NCBI RefSeq assembly: GCF_000299335.2
Contig: NZ_CP004387.1
Location: 1,984,001-2,048,000, forward strand
Length of the DNA: 64,000 nucleotides
From: Isoalcanivorax pacificus W11-5
GTDB taxonomy: Bacteria; Pseudomonadota; Gammaproteobacteria; Pseudomonadales; Alcanivoracaceae
Direction of reading: 5' to 3'
The position numbers and the translations under genes are program-made. Of this stretch, positions 29,112-39,504 are shown piece after piece (position 1 is the stretch's first letter; the number at the start of each line of letters is the position of its first letter). The notes beneath the pieces are model-generated. The model searched no databases. It was not told the origin of the DNA and saw nothing but the letters and a program-made list of their open reading frames with translations.

Positions 29112-29187
29112 GCGGGAATAGCTCAGTTGGTAGAGCGCAACCTTGCCAAGGTTGAGGTCGCGAGTTCGAACCTCGTTTCCCGCTCCA
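29112..29187 (+). tRNA. tRNA-Gly (anticodon GCC)
   Basis: A 76-nt cloverleaf with encoded CCA: acceptor GCGGGAA/TTCCCGC, D arm GCTC-AGTTGGTA-GAGC, anticodon loop TTGCCAA (GCC), and T arm CGAG-GTTCGAACC-type sequence. It is first of the Gly-Cys-Leu tRNA set downstream of pgsA, as in E. coli glyW-cysT-leuZ. Confidence 0.97.
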
Positions 29188-29229
29188 GATTCAGACCAGG
29201 CCCGTTCCAGGCGGGACGGGCCGGTCAGA

Positions 29230-29258
29230 AACCTCGGCCCAACCGGGGTTTTTGTTTT
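29230..29258 (+). terminator. Terminator-like hairpin between tRNA-Gly and tRNA-Cys
   Basis: AACCTCGG-CCCAA-CCGGGGTT (arms 29230-29237 and 29243-29250, one T-G wobble) is followed by TTTGTTTT. This fits an intrinsic terminator or a partial attenuator and would separate tRNA-Gly from the two downstream tRNAs. Confidence 0.55.
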
Positions 29259-29306
29259 CCGGGGCAGTGCTTTTTCGGCACCGATTTTCCGGTAATCCAG
29301 TTTCAC

Positions 29307-29380
29307 GGCGCGGTGGCAGAGTGGTTATGCAGCGGACTGCAACTCCGTATACGCCGGTTCGATTCCGACCCGCGCCTCCA
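29307..29380 (+). tRNA. tRNA-Cys (anticodon GCA)
   Basis: 74 nt with encoded CCA. Acceptor GGCGCGG/CCGCGCC, anticodon stem CGGA/TCCG with loop CTGCAAC (GCA), and T loop GGTTCGATTCC. Confidence 0.97.
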
Positions 29381-29439
29381 TATCTTTAAAGCAGTCCTCA
29401 AGCAGTTTCCGGACCGGCCATCCGGACCGGTCTCACCCT

Positions 29440-29526
29440 GCCCGGGTGGCGAAATTGGTAGACGCATGGGACTTAAAATCCCTTGTCCTTCGGGGCGTGC
29501 GGGTTCGAGTCCCGCCCCGGGCACCA
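29440..29526 (+). tRNA. tRNA-Leu (anticodon UAA)
   Basis: An 87-nt class II tRNA with encoded CCA. Acceptor GCCCGGG/CCCGGGC, anticodon stem GGGA/TCCC with loop CTTAAAA (TAA), a long variable arm (TTGTCCTTCGGGGCGTG) and T arm GCGGG-TTCGAGT-CCCGC. Confidence 0.97.
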
Positions 29527-29787: not shown

Positions 29788-32700
29788 ATGAACTGGTTTA
29801 CCAATCTGTCCATCCGACTGAAGATCCTGTCGGTGGCCGCGATGGGCATTCTGGCGTTTCTGGCCTATTTCGTTTACGGCTTTTATAACAACGAAGCCAA
29901 CATTCGCCAGATCTCCACCATCGAGCAAACGGACGTTCCGGTGCTCGAGAATATCAACGAAAGCAATCTCGCCTACGCGGCCGTGCGCGAAGCCTTTATC
30001 CAGGCCCTGAATCAGGAAAATGATGAACTGTTCGTCGAGGCCCACAGCCTGGCCTGGCGCTACAAAGAAGCACTCAGCCGCATCGCGGATATCAACCCCA
30101 CCGTCCATGACGATGTCGAGGCATTGATCGAGCTGGTCGACAGCTATCTGGCCGAAGCCGACGCCCTGGCACAACTGACCATGAGCCACACGGCGTCGCC
30201 GCAGGCCATCGAAAGCCAGCGCCAGCGTGTACTGACATTGCAGTCGCAGTATGAAGCCCGGCAGCGCGCTTTTGAGCAGGGACGCTACGAGGCATTCCGC
30301 AACAAGCTCAGTGTGTCGCGCGAAGACAGCCGCAATATGCAGTATGTCGGGCTGGGCATCAGCATCCTGACGTTTGTGCTGCTGAGCCTGATTGCCTGGC
30401 GCGTGACCCGCAGTATTACCAAGGGGCTGCGTTACGCCGTGGTGGCCGCCGACGATATCGCCCAGGGCAACTGGGATGCAGATATCCAGGTGCGCAGCCG
30501 CGATGAAACCGGGCGGCTGCTGTATGCCATCCGGCGCATGCGTGACGCGCTGAAGACAGCGCGCGATGAAGACCGGCGCAGTGAGCGCCTGAAAAGCCAG
30601 TTGGCTGAATTCAACGACACCATGCGCGGCGACATGACGCTGCAGCAATTGGGCAACAACGTGCTCAATTATATGGTGCCGGCCATGCACGCCCAGGTCG
30701 GTGCCTTTTATATGTTTGATGACCAGAGTGGCACGCTGCGTCTGAACAGTTCTCACGCCATGGAGCGTCGCAAGCACCTGGCAGGTGATTTCAGTCTGGG
30801 TGAGGGGCTGGTGGGTCAGTGCGCGCTGGAGCAGAAACAGATTCTGCTCAGCCGTGTGCCGGAGGATTATCTCAGCGTGACGTCGGCGACGGGGTCGGCT
30901 ACACCACGCAATGTGATCGTGACGCCGATCGTGCATGAGGATGAGCTCAAGGGCGTGATCGAAGTGGCCGCCTTCCGCGAGTTCGATGAGGACGATCTCA
31001 ACTTCCTGCAACAGGCAGTGCGTGCGCTGGCGATTTCTGTGCACACCGCGCAAAGCCGCGTGCGGCTGGCACAGATGCTGGAACAGACCCGGCTGCAGGC
31101 GCAGGAGCTGGAGCAGCAGAAACGTGAGCTGGGACAGGTCAATGCAGATCTGGAGCAGCAGGCGATGGATCTCTCTGCCTCCGAGTCGCGCCTGCAACAG
31201 CAGCAGGAAGAGCTGAAAGCCATCAACGAGGAACTGGAAGCCCAGACCCAGGCGCTGCGCGCCTCGGAAGAAAGCCTCCAGGCCCAGCAGGAAGAATTGC
31301 GTGTCACCAACGAGGAGCTGGAAGCCCAGGCGCGGCTGATGTCCGAGCAGAAGGCCGAGGTGACGAAGAAGAACCGCGAGCTGGAGCTGCTGCGGCAGGA
31401 GCTGGAAGAAAAAGTACGCGAACTGGAAATGTCCTCGCGCTACAAGTCCGAGTTCCTGTCCACCATGTCGCACGAGTTGCGCACGCCGCTGAACAGCATC
31501 CTGATCCTGTCCAATGCGCTGAGCGAGAACAAGCGCGGCAACCTGGATGAAAAACAGGTGGAGCATGCCTCGGTGATCTACTCGGCGGGCACAGACCTGC
31601 TGTCACTGATCAACGACATCCTCGATATTTCCAAGATCGAGGAAGGCAAGATGGAGCTGGTCATCGACGATATCAGCCCGCAGGAATTGTCCGAGCATTT
31701 CCGCCGCAACTTCTCCCACGTGGCCGAGAACCGCGGGCTGTCGTTCCATGTCCAGGTCGAGGACAACATGCCGGCGCATTTCTTCACCGACCGTCAGCGG
31801 CTGGAGCAGGTGCTCAAGAACATGCTGTCCAATGCGCTCAAGTTCACCGAGCAGGGCAGCGTGACGCTGAAACTGGACGTGCCGGCCGAGGACGAGCGGC
31901 TGCCGTCGCGGCATCTGGTGAAAGGCGAGACGATGCGTTTCTCGGTGATCGACACCGGCATCGGTATCGCGCCGGACAAGCAGCAGCTGATCTTCGAGGC
32001 GTTCCAGCAGGCCGATGGCACCACCAGCCGCAAATACGGCGGCACTGGCCTGGGGCTGACCATTTCGCGTGAGCTGGCACGGCTGCTCGGCGGTGAAATT
32101 GCCATTCACAGCGATGGCGAAGGGCAGGGCTCCACCTTCATGCTGTACCTGCCCATCGGCAGTGAAGATACCGTCGAGGTTGAAGCAGAACCCGAGCAGG
32201 CGCCGTCACCGCTGGGGGCGATGCTGGCCGAGATCGTGCAGCCGCTGCCGGAAGATGGTTTCCTGGTGCGTGAAAAGAGCGTACTGATCATCGAGGATGA
32301 TACCGACTTCGCCAACGTGCTGGTCGACCTGGCGGCAGACTATGGCCTGGAAGGGCACGTGTGTGCCGACGGGGAAAGCGGGCTGGAATACGCCCGCCAC
32401 TACCGCCCCAGCGCCATCATCCTCGATATCGGCCTGCCGGGCATGGATGGCTGGGAAGTGATGGAGCGGCTCAAGGCCGATCCACGCAGCAAGGATATTC
32501 CGGTGCATTTCCTGTCCGGCAAGGACGAACGGAAAAAGGCGCTGGACCTGGGTGCCATTGATTTCCTGACCAAGCCGGTCAACAAGGACCAGATACTGGG
32601 TGCATTCGCCAAGATCGAGACGGCCATTTCCAAGAATGTGCGCCGGCTGCTGGTGGTTGAGGACAGTGAAATCCAGCACGAGGGCATCCGCGAGCTGTTT

Positions 32701-33444
32701 GACCAGAAAGGTGTGGAAATCACCGCGGCTACCAACGGCACCGATGCGCTGCAAGCGCTGCGCAATCAGGTGTTCGACTGCATGATCCTTGACCTGACAT
32801 TGCCGGACATGAGCGGTTTCGAGTTGCTGGAAACGATCCACAACAGCGCTGATTACGACAGCGTCCCGGTGATCATCTATACCGGCAAGGACCTGACCCG
32901 CGAGGAAGAGGCGCAACTGCGCAAGTATGCCGACCGCATCATCCTCAAGACCGAGCGTTCCTCCGAACGGCTGCTCAATGAAGCCTCGCTGTTCCTGCAC
33001 TGGCTGGAATCCACATTGCCCGGGCATTCGCGCAATGCCGCGCAGGCAGTCGAGCATCGCGATGACGTGTTCGAGGACAAGCGCCTGCTGCTGGTGGATG
33101 ATGACATGCGCAATATCTATGCACTGTCCGCGCAACTGGAAGAACTGGGCTTTGACATCACCATCGCCAATAACGGCCGGGAGGCGTTGGAAGCCCTGGA
33201 TGAGGCACCGGACATGGACATCGTGCTGATGGACATCATGATGCCGGAAATGGACGGCTATCAGGCGATGGGCGAGATCCGCAAGCAGGATCGCTTCGGC
33301 CGGCTGCCGATCCTGGCGCTCACCGCCAAGGCCATGAAGGACGACCGCGCCAAGTGCATTGACGCGGGCGCGAACGACTACTGCTCGAAACCGATCGACA
33401 TGGCCAAGCTGACGTCCCTGATGCGGGTGTGGTTGCACAAATGA
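29788..33444 (+). CDS. Hybrid sensor histidine kinase (4HB sensor-HAMP-GAF-coiled coil-HisKA-HATPase-REC x3)
   Basis: The 1218-residue protein has TM1 at ~13-31, a purely helical extracytoplasmic domain (~32-188) like the four-helix-bundle sensors of chemoreceptors, TM2 at ~190-208 and HAMP at ~210-262. A GAF-like domain follows (~280-420). Then comes a long Glu/Gln-rich coiled coil (~425-555) that includes two 28-residue repeats at 464-491 and 492-519. The kinase core has H562 (SHELRTPLNS), the N box with N682, G1 D722 (DTGIGIAP) and G2 (GGTGLGL). Three receivers follow with phosphoacceptor Asp at about 880 (ILDIGLPGMDG), 1002 (ILDLTLPDMSG) and 1149 (LMDIMMPEMDG); the second has KTE instead of the usual Lys-Pro. 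Its stop overlaps the cheR start by 4 bases. The signal sensed is unknown. Confidence 0.93.
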   Translation: MNWFTNLSIRLKILSVAAMGILAFLAYFVYGFYNNEANIRQISTIEQTDVPVLENINESNLAYAAVREAFIQALNQENDELFVEAHSLAWRYKEALSRIADINPTVHDDVEALIELVDSYLAEADALAQLTMSHTASPQAIESQRQRVLTLQSQYEARQRAFEQGRYEAFRNKLSVSREDSRNMQYVGLGISILTFVLLSLIAWRVTRSITKGLRYAVVAADDIAQGNWDADIQVRSRDETGRLLYAIRRMRDALKTARDEDRRSERLKSQLAEFNDTMRGDMTLQQLGNNVLNYMVPAMHAQVGAFYMFDDQSGTLRLNSSHAMERRKHLAGDFSLGEGLVGQCALEQKQILLSRVPEDYLSVTSATGSATPRNVIVTPIVHEDELKGVIEVAAFREFDEDDLNFLQQAVRALAISVHTAQSRVRLAQMLEQTRLQAQELEQQKRELGQVNADLEQQAMDLSASESRLQQQQEELKAINEELEAQTQALRASEESLQAQQEELRVTNEELEAQARLMSEQKAEVTKKNRELELLRQELEEKVRELEMSSRYKSEFLSTMSHELRTPLNSILILSNALSENKRGNLDEKQVEHASVIYSAGTDLLSLINDILDISKIEEGKMELVIDDISPQELSEHFRRNFSHVAENRGLSFHVQVEDNMPAHFFTDRQRLEQVLKNMLSNALKFTEQGSVTLKLDVPAEDERLPSRHLVKGETMRFSVIDTGIGIAPDKQQLIFEAFQQADGTTSRKYGGTGLGLTISRELARLLGGEIAIHSDGEGQGSTFMLYLPIGSEDTVEVEAEPEQAPSPLGAMLAEIVQPLPEDGFLVREKSVLIIEDDTDFANVLVDLAADYGLEGHVCADGESGLEYARHYRPSAIILDIGLPGMDGWEVMERLKADPRSKDIPVHFLSGKDERKKALDLGAIDFLTKPVNKDQILGAFAKIETAISKNVRRLLVVEDSEIQHEGIRELFDQKGVEITAATNGTDALQALRNQVFDCMILDLTLPDMSGFELLETIHNSADYDSVPVIIYTGKDLTREEEAQLRKYADRIILKTERSSERLLNEASLFLHWLESTLPGHSRNAAQAVEHRDDVFEDKRLLLVDDDMRNIYALSAQLEELGFDITIANNGREALEALDEAPDMDIVLMDIMMPEMDGYQAMGEIRKQDRFGRLPILALTAKAMKDDRAKCIDAGANDYCSKPIDMAKLTSLMRVWLHK

Positions 33445-34349
33445 GCGAAGAACCGGTAGCGCCTTACCAGGCCCGGCCCACCGAACCACCGGTGCAGGTG
33501 ACCGATGAGCAGGTGAACATCGAGGATATCGAGATACGGTTGCTGCTGGAGGCGATCTACCAGCTTTACGGGTACGACTTCCGCAGCTACAGCAAGGCGT
33601 CATTGCGGCGCCGCGTCATGCACAGGCTGGGCATGTCCGGGCTACCCTCGATCATGGCGATGACCGACCGGGTGCTGCGCGACCAGGCGTTTTTCGTCAC
33701 GTTGCTGAATGACCTGACGGTGAACGTCACCGAGATGTTCCGTGACCCGGAATTCTATCGCGCCTTCCGCGAGGAGGTGGTGCCGGTACTGAAGACGTTT
33801 CCGTTCATCAAGATCTGGCATGCCGGGTGTGCTACCGGCGAAGAAATCTACAGCATGGCGATCCTGCTCGAGGAAGAGGGGCTGTTCGACCGCGCCATGC
33901 TGTATGCCACGGACATCGACAAGAATGTCCTGGCGGCGGCGAAGAAGGGCATCTATTCCTACGCTGCCATCAAGGTTTACAGCGACAACTATCGTCGCGC
34001 GGGGGGCAAGGCATCCCTGGCGGATTACTACACCGCCAAGTACGACGGCGTGATCATGGATCAGCGCCTGAAACGCAATATCGTCTTCGCCGACCACGAC
34101 CTGGCCACTGACCAGGTGTTTGGTGAAATGAACGTGATTGTCTGCCGCAATGTCCTGATCTACTTTGACCGGGACCTGCAGCAGCGCGTTTTCAGGCTGT
34201 TCCGCGATAGCCTGGATATGGGCGGTTATCTGTGCCTGGGCACCAAGGAAAGCCTGCGGTTTTCCGGGTGTGAAGAGCATTTTGAGCCGGTGGTGGGGGA
34301 TCTGCGCATCTTCCGCAAGCGGCAGTTGATGAAAAGAGATACGCGATGA
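33441..34349 (+). CDS. cheR: CheR-type protein-glutamate methyltransferase
   Basis: The 302-residue protein has the CheR all-alpha N-terminal domain (~20-90; 'YGYDFRSYSKASLRRRVMHRL') and SAM-binding methyltransferase domain with 'NVTEMFRDPEFYRAF', the SAM motif IWHAGCATGEEIYSMA and 'VIVCRNVLIYFD'. CheR proteins methylate glutamates on signalling coiled coils, usually of chemoreceptors. No chemoreceptor, CheA or CheW is nearby. ATG 33441 overlaps the kinase stop codon and the gene overlaps the next receiver gene by 4 bases, so all are coupled. Confidence 0.93.
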   Translation: MSEEPVAPYQARPTEPPVQVTDEQVNIEDIEIRLLLEAIYQLYGYDFRSYSKASLRRRVMHRLGMSGLPSIMAMTDRVLRDQAFFVTLLNDLTVNVTEMFRDPEFYRAFREEVVPVLKTFPFIKIWHAGCATGEEIYSMAILLEEEGLFDRAMLYATDIDKNVLAAAKKGIYSYAAIKVYSDNYRRAGGKASLADYYTAKYDGVIMDQRLKRNIVFADHDLATDQVFGEMNVIVCRNVLIYFDRDLQQRVFRLFRDSLDMGGYLCLGTKESLRFSGCEEHFEPVVGDLRIFRKRQLMKRDTR

Positions 34350-34813
34350 TTGAGCAAAGCATACTGATGGTGGACGACCAGCCCGCGAACCTGGTCTCCC
34401 TGGACGCCATCCTGGAAGCGCCCGAGCGTCGTCTGCTCAAGGCGCACTCAGGCCCCGAGGCGCTGAAAATTCTGCTCAAGGAAGATATCTCGCTGGTACT
34501 GCTGGACGTGCAGATGCCGGGCATGGACGGTTTCGAGGTGGCCGAGCTGATGCGGCAGCGGAAGGACACGCAGACCATCCCGATCATCTTTGTCACTGCC
34601 ATCAGCAAAGAGCAGAAGTACGTATTCCAGGGTTACCAGGCCGGTGCGGTCGACTACCTGTTCAAACCGCTCGACCCGCTGATCCTGCAGAGCAAGGTCA
34701 ATTTTTTCCTGCAGCTGGACCGGCAACGGCGTGAGTTGCAGGCAAAGCTCAAGGAGGCGCAGGCCTATCGGGCTGCGTACGAGGCAGAAAAACAACGCGG
34801 CCAGAAAAACTGA
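34346..34813 (+). CDS. Single-domain response regulator
   Basis: The 155-residue protein has one receiver domain (~1-125; VDD, D in VLLDVQMPGMDG, T in FVTA, K in FKPLD) and a short charged helical tail (RQRRELQAKLKEAQAYRAAYEAEKQRGQKN region) that may dimerise. Much of the receiver is identical in blocks to the receiver of the REC-PAS-PilZ protein two genes downstream (SLVLLDVQMP, MDGFEVAELMRQ, PIIFVTAISKEQKYVF), so the two are recent paralogues. It has no output domain and probably acts in phosphotransfer or by protein contact. Confidence 0.9.
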   Translation: MIEQSILMVDDQPANLVSLDAILEAPERRLLKAHSGPEALKILLKEDISLVLLDVQMPGMDGFEVAELMRQRKDTQTIPIIFVTAISKEQKYVFQGYQAGAVDYLFKPLDPLILQSKVNFFLQLDRQRRELQAKLKEAQAYRAAYEAEKQRGQKN

Positions 34814-34917
34814 CAGCATCGATGGCCGCACGGATGCAACACGGCATGGAGCAGCTCAGGCGTCGCGTTGGGAGGCACACCCGGCGGGGGCAGCGGCGCA
34901 CTGAATAGAGAAGGTTT

Positions 34918-35502
34918 ATGTCCCGACAACGCATCAAGGCAGTGGTAATGGGCGCGTCCTGGGGCGGGCTTGAGGCTTATACAGCCGTGCTGGGACGGCT
35001 GCCGGCAACGCTGCCGGTGCCGGTACTGCTGGTACAGCATCAGCATCCGACGGCCGGTGACAAACTGCCCTGGTTGCTGGACACCCGTACCGCCATGCGG
35101 GTGATGTCGGCACAGGACAAGACCATACTGGAGCCAGGCTGTGTCTATGTCGCACCGCCCGGTTATCACATGCTGGTGGATAGTGATCACACGGTATGTT
35201 ATTCACTGGCAGCGCCGGTGAATTATTCACGGCCATCGATCGACGAGCTTTTTTATTCCGCCGGCCATGTCTACGGCAACGGCTTGCTCGCGGTTATCCT
35301 GACCGGCGCCAATGAAGACGGTGCGGCAGGCATAAAATACATAAAACAACGCGGGGGAATCACCGTGGCGCAGTCGCCACTGACGGCAGAAGCCCAGGTC
35401 ATGCCCCAGTCGGCAATTGATACGGGCTGTGTCGACTGGGTGCGTGACCTGCCCGACATCGGTGATTTCGTGGTGGAACAGGTTTTCGGGTTGCAGGAAT
35501 GA
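34918..35502 (+). CDS. cheB: CheB-type protein-glutamate methylesterase (catalytic domain only)
   Basis: The 194-residue protein is a stand-alone CheB_methylest domain with the catalytic triad motifs: Ser in GASWGGLEAY, His in LVQHQHP, and Asp in ILTGANEDGAAG. The usual N-terminal receiver domain is absent, so activation must come from elsewhere, perhaps from the separate receiver proteins encoded on both sides. It ends in a 4-base overlap with the REC-PAS-PilZ gene. There is a 104-base gap upstream with GAGAAGG before the ATG. Confidence 0.93.
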   Translation: MSRQRIKAVVMGASWGGLEAYTAVLGRLPATLPVPVLLVQHQHPTAGDKLPWLLDTRTAMRVMSAQDKTILEPGCVYVAPPGYHMLVDSDHTVCYSLAAPVNYSRPSIDELFYSAGHVYGNGLLAVILTGANEDGAAGIKYIKQRGGITVAQSPLTAEAQVMPQSAIDTGCVDWVRDLPDIGDFVVEQVFGLQE

Positions 35503-36641
35503 TCAGGCAGAACATTCTGGTAGTAGACGATCACAAGGAAAACCTTATTGCCATCGAGGCGATTCTCGAAGCCCCGAGCCGGCAACTGGTCATGGCGTCC
35601 AGTGGCAACGAGGCGTTGCAGCTGGCACTCAAGCACGATTTTTCGCTGGTGCTGCTGGACGTGCAGATGCCCGACATGGACGGCTTCGAAGTGGCCGAGC
35701 TGATGCGGCAGAATCGCCGCACGCGCACGTTGCCGATCATCTTTGTCACCGCCATCAGCAAGGAACAGAAATACGTCTTCAAGGGCTACGAATGTGGCGC
35801 CGTGGACTATCTGTTCAAGCCGCTGGACAAGCAGGTGCTGGAAGCCAAAGTCAACGTGTTTCTTGACCTGGACCTGCAGAAACGCAAACTGCAGCAGGCC
35901 GTGGTCCAGATGAAGCGGCTCAAGGACGAGAACGAGCGGCTGTTGCAGGCCCTCGGCGAAGGCATCCTCGGGACCGACGCTGATGGGCTTATATCATTCT
36001 GCAATGATGCCGCGGCTACACTGCTCGCCTGTGACCGCGATGCCCTGATCGGCCAGCCGATACAGGCGCTGCTGTGCCAGGATATGCAGGCCACGCCGTT
36101 CGACTGGTCGTCGTCGGCGTTGCTGGCCGGTTGCCGGGCGGGGCGCTGCTGGCGCAATGAGGCCAGCCTGTACGCCCGGCGTGATGGCGATCTGGTGGCG
36201 CTGGAGATGACCGCCACACCGATCAATCCGCCCGATGAGGCATTCAGTGGTTGCGTCATCCTGTTCCGCGAGCAGACCGGCTTTGACCTTTCCGTGCAGG
36301 AACGCCAGGCGCGGGAAGCACGCCGTTATCCGCGCAAGAAAGTGTTTCGCGAGATGGTGTTGTTCGATCGTACGACTGGTGGCAATGTAGGGCGCCTGTT
36401 GAACATCAGCGTTGACGGATTCAAGCTGAGCAGCCGCAAGGCGATCAAGGAAGGGCAGCGCCTGGCCCTGAGCATGGTCCTGCCGGAACAGATCAACGGA
36501 TTGAACACTCTGAGCTTTGACGCCAGGGCGATCTGGTGCCAGCCCGCCGGTACGGGTGAGGATTACCAGACCGGATTCCAGTTTCTGGATATGCACGACG
36601 CCGGACGCGGTATCATCGAGGCCCTGATGGAAAAGATATGA
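35499..36641 (+). CDS. Response regulator with PAS and PilZ domains (REC-PAS-PilZ)
   Basis: The 380-residue protein is a fusion. A receiver domain (~1-125; D in LLDVQMPDMDG, K in FKPLD) is followed by a helical linker (~126-150), a PAS-like domain (~140-255, 'GILGTDADGLISFCNDAAATLLACDRDALIGQ') and a C-terminal PilZ domain. The PilZ c-di-GMP motifs are intact: RxxxR at R275-R279 (RRYPR) and NxSxxG at 302-307 (NISVDG). It therefore joins phosphorelay input with likely c-di-GMP binding. The start overlaps cheB by 4 bases. It is the last gene of the five-gene operon. Confidence 0.9.
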   Translation: MIRQNILVVDDHKENLIAIEAILEAPSRQLVMASSGNEALQLALKHDFSLVLLDVQMPDMDGFEVAELMRQNRRTRTLPIIFVTAISKEQKYVFKGYECGAVDYLFKPLDKQVLEAKVNVFLDLDLQKRKLQQAVVQMKRLKDENERLLQALGEGILGTDADGLISFCNDAAATLLACDRDALIGQPIQALLCQDMQATPFDWSSSALLAGCRAGRCWRNEASLYARRDGDLVALEMTATPINPPDEAFSGCVILFREQTGFDLSVQERQAREARRYPRKKVFREMVLFDRTTGGNVGRLLNISVDGFKLSSRKAIKEGQRLALSMVLPEQINGLNTLSFDARAIWCQPAGTGEDYQTGFQFLDMHDAGRGIIEALMEKI

Positions 36642-36757
36642 TGACTCGGTGCCATCCTGGCTCAGGTGGCATCGTCCGGGTATTGTTGCAGCCCCAGGGC
36701 AAGGCAGTAGCCGAATAAGAACGAGCCCGAAGCCTGAAATGGAGAATGCTGGTCGCC

Positions 36758-38281
36758 ATGTCTGAGGTCGATATCCAGGAAGAAGAGGTTGCGGAAGACA
36801 TTCTGCCCGCTGTCGCTTCCCGCGAGGTGCTGCCCTACAGTTTTGCCCGCCGTCACCGCATCCTGTTGCGGGGCCAGAATGGCGAGCGTGAGCTGTGTTG
36901 CGTCCCGCCGGTGGACATCCACGTGCTGGCCGAAGTGCGCCGCTGGCTCGGTGATCTGCCGAAACTTACCACCCTGGACGAGGGTGGCCTGGCCAGTGCC
37001 ATGGCCATTACCTATGAACAGCAGCGCGGCGCCGCCGCCGAAGCGGCTGACAGCCTGGAGGGCATGGACCTGGCCAGCCTGGCCGATGCCCTGCCGGAAA
37101 CCTCCGATCTGCTGGAGCAGGAAGATGACGCGCCGATCATCCGGCTGATCAACGCGCTGCTGCAGGAAGCGATTCGCGAAAACGCCTCCGATATCCATAT
37201 CGAGACCTTTGAACGCCGCCTGCTGGTGCGTATGCGCGTGGATGGCGTGCTGCGCGAAGTGCTGGCACCACGGCGCGAGCTGGCGCCGCTGCTGGTGTCC
37301 CGGATCAAGGTAATGGCGCGGCTGGACATCGCCGAAAAACGGATTCCCCAGGACGGCCGTATCTCGCTGCGCGTGGGCGGCCGGGACGTGGACGTGCGGG
37401 TGTCCACCATGCCGTCCAGCAATGGTGAGCGGGTGGTAATGCGTCTGCTCGACAAGCAGGCAGGGCGCCTGCAACTGGGCCACCTGGGCATGGGCGACGT
37501 GTGCTACCAGGAGATGATGGCGCAGATCCACAAGCCGCACGGCATCATCCTGGTGACCGGGCCGACCGGCTCCGGTAAAACCACCACCCTGTACGCCAGC
37601 CTGACCGAACTGAACGATTCCTCGCGCAATATCCTCACTGTGGAAGACCCGGTCGAATACCAGCTCGAAGGTATTGGCCAGACCCAGGTGAACAACAAGG
37701 TCGACATGACCTTCGCCCGTGGCCTGCGCGCCATCCTGCGTCAGGATCCGGACGTGGTGATGATCGGCGAGATCCGTGACCTGGAGACCGCCGAGATCGC
37801 GGTCCAGGCCTCGCTCACCGGCCACCTGGTGCTCTCGACCCTGCACACCAACACCGCCGTGGGCGCCGTGACCCGTCTGCAGGACATGGGCATCGAGCCG
37901 TTCCTGTTGTCATCGAGCCTGCTTGGCGTAATGGCCCAGCGTCTGGTGCGCGTGCTGTGCCCCGAGTGCCGTGAAGCCTACCAGGCCACGCCGAGCGAAC
38001 TGGCGCTGATGGGGCGCCCGGAAGGCGAAGCCCTGACACTGTACCGGCCAAAGGGTTGCGAACACTGCAACCAGTCCGGTTATCGCGGCCGGACCGGTAT
38101 CTATGAACTGGTGGTGGTGGATGACGACATGCGCGAGATGATCCACGAGCGCGCCAGCGAACAGGCGCTGGAGCGCCACGCGCGCAAGCGCACGCCGGGC
38201 ATTCGCGATGATGGCTGGCGCAAGGTGATGGCGGGTGAATCCACCATCGAAGAAGTACTGCGTGTCACCAGGGAAAGCTGA
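36758..38281 (+). CDS. gspE: Type II secretion system ATPase GspE
   Basis: The ~507-residue secretion ATPase is in the PulE/GspE family: an N-terminal GspL-binding domain, then the ATPase core with '[26 protein letters not shown]', Walker [16 protein letters not shown], the Asp box '[21 protein letters not shown]', Walker B '[14 protein letters not shown]' and the zinc-binding CPEC...CEHC. It powers pseudopilus growth and substrate export. ATG 36758 ([11 protein letters not shown]) is preferred; ATG 36746 is in frame but only one base behind GGAG. gspF starts on the last base of its stop. Confidence 0.95.
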
Positions 38282-39504
38282 TGCCGGCGTTTGAATACCG
38301 CTCGCTGGATGCCGGCGGCAAGATCAAGAAAGGGATGGTGGAGGCCGACAGCGCCCGCCAGGTGCGCCAGCAGCTGCGCAACAAGGGCTGGGTACCCATC
38401 GAAGTCCGTGAAACCAGGGACCAGAAGGGGAAGGGGACGCTGTTCTCCGGCCTGTCCCGCTCCGGCAAGCTGAATACCGCCGAGCAGGCACTGATTACCC
38501 GGCAACTGGCCACCCTGATCCGTTCCGGACTGCCCATTGAGCAGGCATTGTCCGCCGTGGCCCGCCAGGCCGGCCGCCCTCATGTGGAGCGCATCGTGCT
38601 GGCCGTGCGGGCCAAGGTGACCGAGGGCTACAGCCTGGCCCGGTCAATGGGCGAATTTCCGCGTGCCTTCCCGGAAATGTACCGGGCCACCGTGGCGGCG
38701 GGGGAATCCTCCGGGCATCTGGAACAGGTGCTGGAACAGCTCTCTGAATATCTCGAAAACCGGCACGACACCGGCCGCTCGGTGATGCAGTCGCTGATCT
38801 ATCCGATTTTCATCATGATCTTCTCGATCCTCATCATCGTCATGATGATGACCTTCGTGGTGCCGCGCATGGTGGAGGTGTTCGCCCGCAACGAGCAGAC
38901 CCTGCCGATGCTGACGCGGGTCATGATCACGGTCAGCGACCTGTTTCGTGACTGGCTGTGGCTGGCCGTGCTGCTGATTGTGGTCGGTATCTTCGCCTTC
39001 GTCAGGGCCATGCGCGCACCCTCATTCCGCATGCGTGTTCACACCCGCCTGGCACGCATGCCGCTGATCGGCAAACTCATCTGTACCTCGGACAGTTCGC
39101 GGCTGGCGAGCACCCTCGGCATCCTGTCCCGCAGCGGCGTGCCGCTGGTGGAAGCCCTGGCCATTTCCAGCCAGGTGGTCGGCAACCTGGCCATCCGTGA
39201 GGCGGTCAACCAGGCCGCCGCGCGGGTACGGGAAGGGGGCAACCTGAGCCGGGCACTGGAGACCAGCGGCTACTTTCCGCCGATGCTGGTGCAGATGATC
39301 GCCAGCGGTGAGGCCAGCGGTGAACTGGACCGGATGCTGACCCGCGCAGCCGAATACCAGGAACGGGAAATGAGCGGTGTGGTCAATACCGTGGTGAGCC
39401 TGCTCGGGCCGGCCATGCTGCTGATGATGGCCGGGCTGGTGGTGCTGATCGTGATGGCGATGATGCTGCCGATCCTGCAGATGAACAAACTGTTCGGCAT
39501 CTGA
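38281..39504 (+). CDS. gspF: Type II secretion inner-membrane platform protein GspF
   Basis: The 407-residue polytopic protein has three membrane helices (~165-190, ~220-240, ~375-395) and two GspF repeats ('ITRQLATLIRSGLPIEQAL' and 'ASTLGILSRSGVPLVEALA'). It forms the platform that couples GspE to the pseudopilus. It begins [18 protein letters not shown] and overlaps gspE by 1 base. Confidence 0.96.
   Translation: MPAFEYRSLDAGGKIKKGMVEADSARQVRQQLRNKGWVPIEVRETRDQKGKGTLFSGLSRSGKLNTAEQALITRQLATLIRSGLPIEQALSAVARQAGRPHVERIVLAVRAKVTEGYSLARSMGEFPRAFPEMYRATVAAGESSGHLEQVLEQLSEYLENRHDTGRSVMQSLIYPIFIMIFSILIIVMMMTFVVPRMVEVFARNEQTLPMLTRVMITVSDLFRDWLWLAVLLIVVGIFAFVRAMRAPSFRMRVHTRLARMPLIGKLICTSDSSRLASTLGILSRSGVPLVEALAISSQVVGNLAIREAVNQAAARVREGGNLSRALETSGYFPPMLVQMIASGEASGELDRMLTRAAEYQEREMSGVVNTVVSLLGPAMLLMMAGLVVLIVMAMMLPILQMNKLFGI

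Follow-up and report, generated by a model that had tools for sequence, protein, structure and literature searches.

Heptad-spaced glutamate pairs of a hybrid histidine kinase as candidate substrate of the CheR and CheB encoded in its operon

Which protein do CheR and CheB modify when the operon that encodes them holds no chemoreceptor? This question is raised by five genes at positions 29788-36641 of a 64,000-nucleotide stretch of Isoalcanivorax pacificus W11-5 DNA (contig NZ_CP004387.1, positions 1,984,001 to 2,048,000; the whole stretch analysed is called the window). The composition given in the original prediction, namely a hybrid kinase, CheR, a lone receiver, CheB and a receiver (REC)-PAS-PilZ protein, agrees with the five open reading frames (ORFs) and with Pfam, and by the same means no CheA, CheW or methyl-accepting chemotaxis protein (MCP) was found within the operon. 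Our answer, to which we assign a probability of about 0.72, is that the two enzymes would reversibly methylate and demethylate the coiled coil of the kinase itself at its Glu-Glu pairs. The kinase coil had already been proposed as substrate from the sequence alone, and sequence comparison supports this proposal: the pairs follow CheR across relatives and, of the ORFs in the neighbourhood, occur almost exclusively in the kinase. The region is filled by the five ORFs, all on the plus strand, with the following features.

29788..33444, + strand: hybrid histidine kinase, sensor-HAMP-GAF-coiled coil-HisKA-HATPase-REC-REC-REC, 1218 aa (ORF and Pfam)
29788..30402, + strand: N-terminal all-helical sensor of the kinase with two hydrophobic segments (sequence, Pfam and structure model)
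30403..30555, + strand: HAMP domain of the kinase, residues 206-256 (Pfam)
30634..31038, + strand: GAF domain of the kinase, residues 283-417 (Pfam)
31207..31320, + strand: candidate methyl-accepting coiled coil with heptad-spaced Glu-Glu pairs at 474, 481, 502 and 509 (sequence comparison)
31471..31473, + strand: presumed phospho-accepting His562 of the H-box (Pfam and sequence)
33441..34349, + strand: CheR methyltransferase, 302 aa (ORF and Pfam)
34346..34813, + strand: lone receiver, 155 aa (ORF and Pfam)
34918..35502, + strand: CheB methylesterase domain without receiver, 194 aa (ORF and Pfam)
35499..36641, + strand: REC-PAS-PilZ output protein, 380 aa (ORF and Pfam)

Three of the four gene junctions are overlaps of 4 nt (kinase/CheR, CheR/receiver and CheB/REC-PAS-PilZ), and a gap of 104 nt separates the receiver gene from cheB. 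The length of CheR takes the ATG start; an alternative GTG lies 12 nt upstream. In the kinase, Pfam places HisKA at residues 553-620 and HATPase at 668-790, followed by three receivers, and the MCPsignal domain (PF00015) is absent. The CheR protein comprises the CheR and CheR_N domains, and residues R101, G133, E135, D158, N237 and Y241 are all present in the alignment; they serve S-adenosylmethionine binding and the active site. CheB consists of the CheB_methylest domain alone and lacks the N-terminal regulatory receiver (Pfam). Its residues S14, H41 and D134, invariant among eight aligned sequences, correspond to the Ser-His-Asp triad.

The Glu-Glu pairs of the kinase at residues 474/475, 481/482, 502/503 and 509/510 share one heptad register and, if the leucines take position d, would lie at b and c on the exposed face. 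That the coil is rich in such pairs, as first noticed from the letters of the sequence, holds beyond composition, with the tandem pattern of the window kinase being reached in only 5 of 20000 shuffles. This pattern, EE[LIMV]x4EE[LIMV], was fixed after kinases linked to CheR had been inspected and before any unlinked relative was, and has been unchanged since. For a set selected by CheB, species genomes were scanned with an alignment of eight CheBs and 80 loci were kept from a longer match list. A repeat near QQEELxxxNEELEE precedes the H-box in 62 operon kinases (55 from these 80 loci, six further loci and the window), 60 of which show the tandem pattern. Across an alignment of 26 kinases, 25 of them sharing 26-60% identity with the window kinase, the invariant columns upstream of the kinase core are M1, E392, L476, E482, L483 and L490. 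Pairs of this kind are methylation sites in chemoreceptors. Among six MCP ORFs of the genome itself that were scanned, some of them cut, one (L004) has EQ, QE and EE pairs at seven-residue spacing, one (L002) has a single tandem and four have none.

The proposal predicts that the pairs come and go with CheR. Kinases were sampled by their kinase core, blind to CheR; in the phylum of the window, 113 of 398 genomes had a match, and the best match of 80 was taken. A kinase was called linked if a same-strand CheR lay no further than 4 kb away (two core samples), if either CheR or CheB was found within 3 kb (additional relatives) or if CheR was found within 2 kb (CheB-selected set). The counts exclude 14 HAMP-only kinases (about 950 aa each) as well as two PAS kinases, L332 and L202, none of which has such a coiled coil; the locus L307 yielded no kinase ORF that reached the cut-off, and two came from L342. 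The tandem pattern was present in 33 of 37 linked and 6 of 28 unlinked kinases (Fisher p = 3e-8; Pagel test, p = 0.012), and at least two tandems were found in 26/37 linked versus 2/25 unlinked ones. Many unlinked kinases retain the coil but carry, for example, QQRELQQTNDQLEQKA at the region of the pairs. A cyanobacterial replicate was fetched afterwards (20 of 24 matches taken, two already in the set, two left out) and gave the pattern in all eight linked versus 3 of 12 unlinked kinases. Here, near-alike coils differ at the pair itself, reading QQEELQQTNEELEEK with CheR (L376, L380) versus QQEELQQTNAELEEK without it (L377, L385, L387, L388).

Such a correlation would also arise if the Glu-Glu repeat were merely inherited in lineages that carry CheR and CheB, with no functional link. 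Indeed, the unlinked kinases fall mostly into few clades, and the p value of the first sample, 0.004 when dereplicated at 80% core identity, climbs to 0.07 at 70%; this clade structure is a point to which we return below. However, the association survives a test on the tree both in the first sample and in the pooled set (62 + 19 + 12, coiled-coil kinases only), where 45 of 49 linked and 11 of 44 unlinked kinases carry the pattern (Pagel p = 0.0005). Three kinases whose coil was too short (L284, L312, L330) were dropped from dereplication and the pooled tests, and L375 also from the pooled test. Twelve independent linked/unlinked pairs comprise five that are discordant in the expected direction, none in the reverse, six in which both partners have the pattern and one in which neither has; in the six, the genome of the unlinked partner has an operon-type CheR elsewhere. 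With the replication in a second phylum and the differences between similar cyanobacterial coils, we regard pure inheritance as very unlikely.

The pattern is also specific to the kinase. In CheR-bearing loci it occurs in 61 of 63 GAF kinases, in none of 167 CheR/CheB ORFs and in none of 145 receiver-first ORFs. Of 20 other ORFs six carry it, these being GAF proteins or kinase fragments and variants (L070, L083, L094, L106, L107, L119). It was absent from 90 other kinase entries of 11 genomes, a count in which a few ORFs appear twice. These numbers bear on the idea that the substrate is another protein, for instance one of the operon's receiver proteins or an unlinked protein with a coiled coil. 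In favour of that idea, no CheB was recognised alongside the CheR of some operons (L336, L285, L334); the lack of any tandem in the receiver-first ORFs near CheR speaks against it, and we consider it highly improbable.

A second line of evidence comes from CheB-CheR fusions, which were selected without regard to the Glu-Glu pattern. Behind the CheR domain, 23 of 25 fusion ORFs carry the tandem (L040, L135-L139, L141, L146-L148, L353-L359, L363, L367, L368, L370-L372), and the remaining two end at CheR; these stretches may be the fusions' own substrate. The same observation would be expected if the Glu-Glu coil were a docking or scaffold surface that holds CheR and CheB at the kinase while they act on something else, and a docking site would produce the same correlation of pattern and CheR. 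We nevertheless hold docking to be unlikely. The enzymes belong to glutamate methyltransferase and methylesterase families, and pairs at the same spacing occur in two of the six MCP ORFs scanned in the genome. In addition, the linked kinase of L277 lacks the pattern, and the CheR beside it (L277:4122-5087) has lost five of the six checked residues (AVELGD for RGEDNY, with E kept), which fits a catalytic role better than docking, although this is a single case. All six residues are present in 105 of 107 aligned CheR rows, that of the window included, and L334 has one conservative change.

Do the enzymes instead serve chemoreceptors encoded elsewhere? The absence of CheA, CheW and MCP that had been noted from the sequence holds for the operon and not for the genome, which has six MCP matches (one partial, none inside the window), three CheR and three CheB. 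These six matches are what favours such a role. However, the two other CheR/CheB pairs lie near MCP matches at 3.28 and 4.00 Mb, and the genome's own che and Pil-Chp-like clusters were rejected as clients of the operon enzymes, each having its own CheR/CheB pair. An MCP census covering the genomes of 50 of the 80 CheB-selected loci found an MCP in 39 and none in 11. CheA also carries a CheW domain; this domain was found in none of the 11 MCP-free genomes and CheR in all of them. The kinase adjoins CheR in all 11, although that of L083 is split into two ORFs and L095 has only the receivers on its contig. Three of these genomes are named as isolates (two Longitalea and one Niastella, 7.3-8.5 Mb), and eight are labelled as metagenome-assembled genomes, in which absence could be incompleteness; in G277, G301 and G304, all of the latter kind, no CheR match was found besides that of the operon. 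The operon of CheR/CheB and kinase thus occurs independently of MCPs, and the rule that these enzymes always accompany MCPs encoded elsewhere, against which the substrate proposal had been set, does not hold. For CfcB and CfcC, the CheR and CheB encoded by cfcB and cfcC of Pseudomonas putida, a role in chemotaxis has been excluded (as cited in PMC4951495). Service to distant chemoreceptors is contradicted as a general rule, and for the window operon we give it next to no credence.

Methylation itself, its effect on kinase activity, any feedback or 'adaptation' and the output are inferred along the following lines. CheR would methylate glutamates of the four pairs on the coil joining HAMP-GAF to the kinase core, and the receiver-less CheB would remove the methyl groups from the same glutamates. 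Neutralising charges at the surface of a signalling coil, as in chemoreceptors, would alter its packing and set the gain or the resting activity of the kinase. Through its own receivers the kinase would hand phosphate on both to the lone receiver and to REC-PAS-PilZ. The lone receiver beside CheB is only a candidate for the element that closes the loop. Its receiver and that of REC-PAS-PilZ (35499-35890) share 69% identity, compared with 23-35% to the kinase receivers, and probably arose by duplication. The REC-PAS-PilZ protein reads RRYPR at 275-279 and NISVDG at 302-307, which match the cyclic di-GMP (c-di-GMP) motif of PilZ, and it appears able to bind c-di-GMP.

Several findings weigh against methylation of the kinase coil, beginning with the clade structure described above. 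Eleven unlinked kinases carry the pattern; seven of them (L288, L299, L194, L196, L381, L384, L391) come from genomes that encode an operon-type CheR at another site. The other four (L267, L270, L272, L280), from one clade, retain one tandem in genomes without such a CheR. Moreover, an operon-type CheR in trans is not predictive: it accompanies 7 of the 11 unlinked kinases with the pattern and 12 of the 33 without it (e.g. L316, L278, L377, L385, L387, L388; Fisher p = 0.16), and two of the five discordant pairs (L278, L200) have it in the genome as well. Three kinases linked to an intact CheR (L336, L341, L344) show partial pairs and no tandem, the CheB-selected kinases L094 and L108 lack the pattern despite an intact CheR, and no pair is present in L241, a GAF kinase that does not belong to the subfamily and that has a more distant CheR 1.2 kb away. 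In the AlphaFold2 model, the predicted local distance difference test score (pLDDT) is below 50 at residues 476-478 and 480-497, so that the Glu-Glu pairs are not resolved. As CheB has no receiver, the usual phospho-feedback of chemotaxis is absent. Finally, the overproduction phenotype of P. putida persisted when any cfc gene but cfcA was mutated (an unpublished statement of the authors in PMC4951495), so CheR and CheB are dispensable for strong output there. The single residue of six retained by the L277 CheR, together with the non-significant test in trans, slightly lowers our confidence in methylation of the coil, to the value given above.

The N-terminus of the kinase had been described as receptor-like, and sequence, AlphaFold2 and Pfam bear this out: two hydrophobic stretches, read from the sequence, flank an all-helical sensor, which is followed by HAMP. 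The modelled sensor helices span residues 9-76, 79-102, 104-133 and 138-225, with a pLDDT of 84-94 for the block beyond residue 10. No Pfam family was assigned to the sensor at the cut-off, with weak matches only (S1 at E 0.25). CHASE3 was not found by Pfam in the kinases of the window, L055 and L061, and was found in those of the Pseudomonas loci L099 and L123.

Among the matches listed, the eight CheBs most similar to that of the window come from Alcanivoracaceae records (54-65% identity). The 80 CheB-selected loci include, judging by record titles, Pseudomonadota, Bacteroidota, Desulfobacterota, Cyanobacteria, Chloroflexota, Nitrospirota, Verrucomicrobiota, Armatimonadota and Bacillota; a search of viral contigs with CheB gave no relative. 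In 61 of the 80 loci, CheR has a kinase followed by receivers no more than 2.5 kb away, a count that leaves out downstream REC-histidine kinase (HK)-REC proteins. The other 19 comprise three with only a receiver fragment at the contig end, two with another GAF protein and 14 with no kinase in reach; three of these 14 also lack CheR, and some are cut by the contig, but L069, L100 and L128 are uncut. Outputs vary: REC-HK is frequent among related operons, the output of the window operon is PilZ, and six of ten scanned receiver proteins, chosen mostly for being other than REC-HK, have GGDEF or GGDEF-EAL (L049, L050, L051, L073, L105, L115).

As for the surroundings, genes for tRNA-Gly, tRNA-Cys and tRNA-Leu lie immediately upstream of the operon (29112-29526). 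Downstream, gspE-gspF, which belong to a type II secretion cluster, follow 104 nt past the REC-PAS-PilZ gene (35499-39504). A same-strand gspE is found downstream in 11 of 11 related loci, being adjacent in L055-L062 and L266 and 1.7-2.1 kb off in L048 and L071; this neighbourhood suggests a link of the operon to secretion.

Beyond this operon, we lean somewhat towards a broader view, in which CheR and CheB outside chemoreceptors would be dedicated writers and erasers of heptad Glu-Glu coils, acting in trans on GAF hybrid kinases and in cis in CheB-CheR fusions. If so, GAF hybrid kinases would be methyl-accepting signalling proteins of a second kind, spread over many phyla and including chemoreceptor-free genomes, and a phosphorelay could gain or lose receptor-style tuning. 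Reversible receptor methylation would then reach beyond chemotaxis arrays, to sensor kinases with c-di-GMP and phosphorelay outputs. A specific and testable substrate is thereby proposed for a large class of CheR/CheB for which none was found assigned in the literature covered. No substrate of CfcB or CfcC is stated in the portions of PMC4951495 and PMC6849547 covered, and no methylation of a histidine kinase by CheR is reported in the open-licence PMC titles and beginnings of abstracts searched.

That CheR and CheB domains are encoded with histidine kinases in other bacteria, as the original prediction stated, is exemplified by cfcABCDE of P. putida, the relative that has been studied best (PMC4951495). 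There, CfcA, a CHASE3/GAF hybrid kinase, is needed for the diguanylate cyclase activity of CfcR (PMC4951495 and PMC6849547). Like cfcABCDE (PP_3761 onward), the window operon combines a GAF hybrid kinase and receivers with a CheR and CheB outside a chemotaxis cluster and a presumably c-di-GMP-linked output. Pseudomonas loci such as L099 and L123 have their genes arranged as in cfcABCDE and share the Glu-Glu coiled coil of the window kinase, and the H-box histidine of L123 is residue 496, matching the report for CfcA. In contrast to cfcABCDE, where the CfcA sensor is CHASE3, the sensor of the window kinase has no assigned Pfam family, a lone receiver stands between CheR and CheB, and REC-PAS-PilZ follows CheB in place of the REC-HK gene of the Pseudomonas loci. 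The window operon is thus a variant of the cfcABCDE type with another sensor and output. With the Wsp pathway it shares a CheR/CheB pair coupled to a phosphorelay and a presumed c-di-GMP output, whereas Wsp has homologues of MCP, CheA and CheW (PMC8919034), none of which is in the window operon. The window kinase resembles MCPs in its helical sensor, its HAMP domain and a coil with acidic pairs seven residues apart, as in two of the six own MCP ORFs scanned, but it has no MCPsignal domain and is itself a kinase. Finally, CheB-CheR fusions unite the same enzymes and the same tandem Glu-Glu pattern behind CheR in one chain, whereas in the window operon the enzymes and the coiled coil reside on separate proteins.

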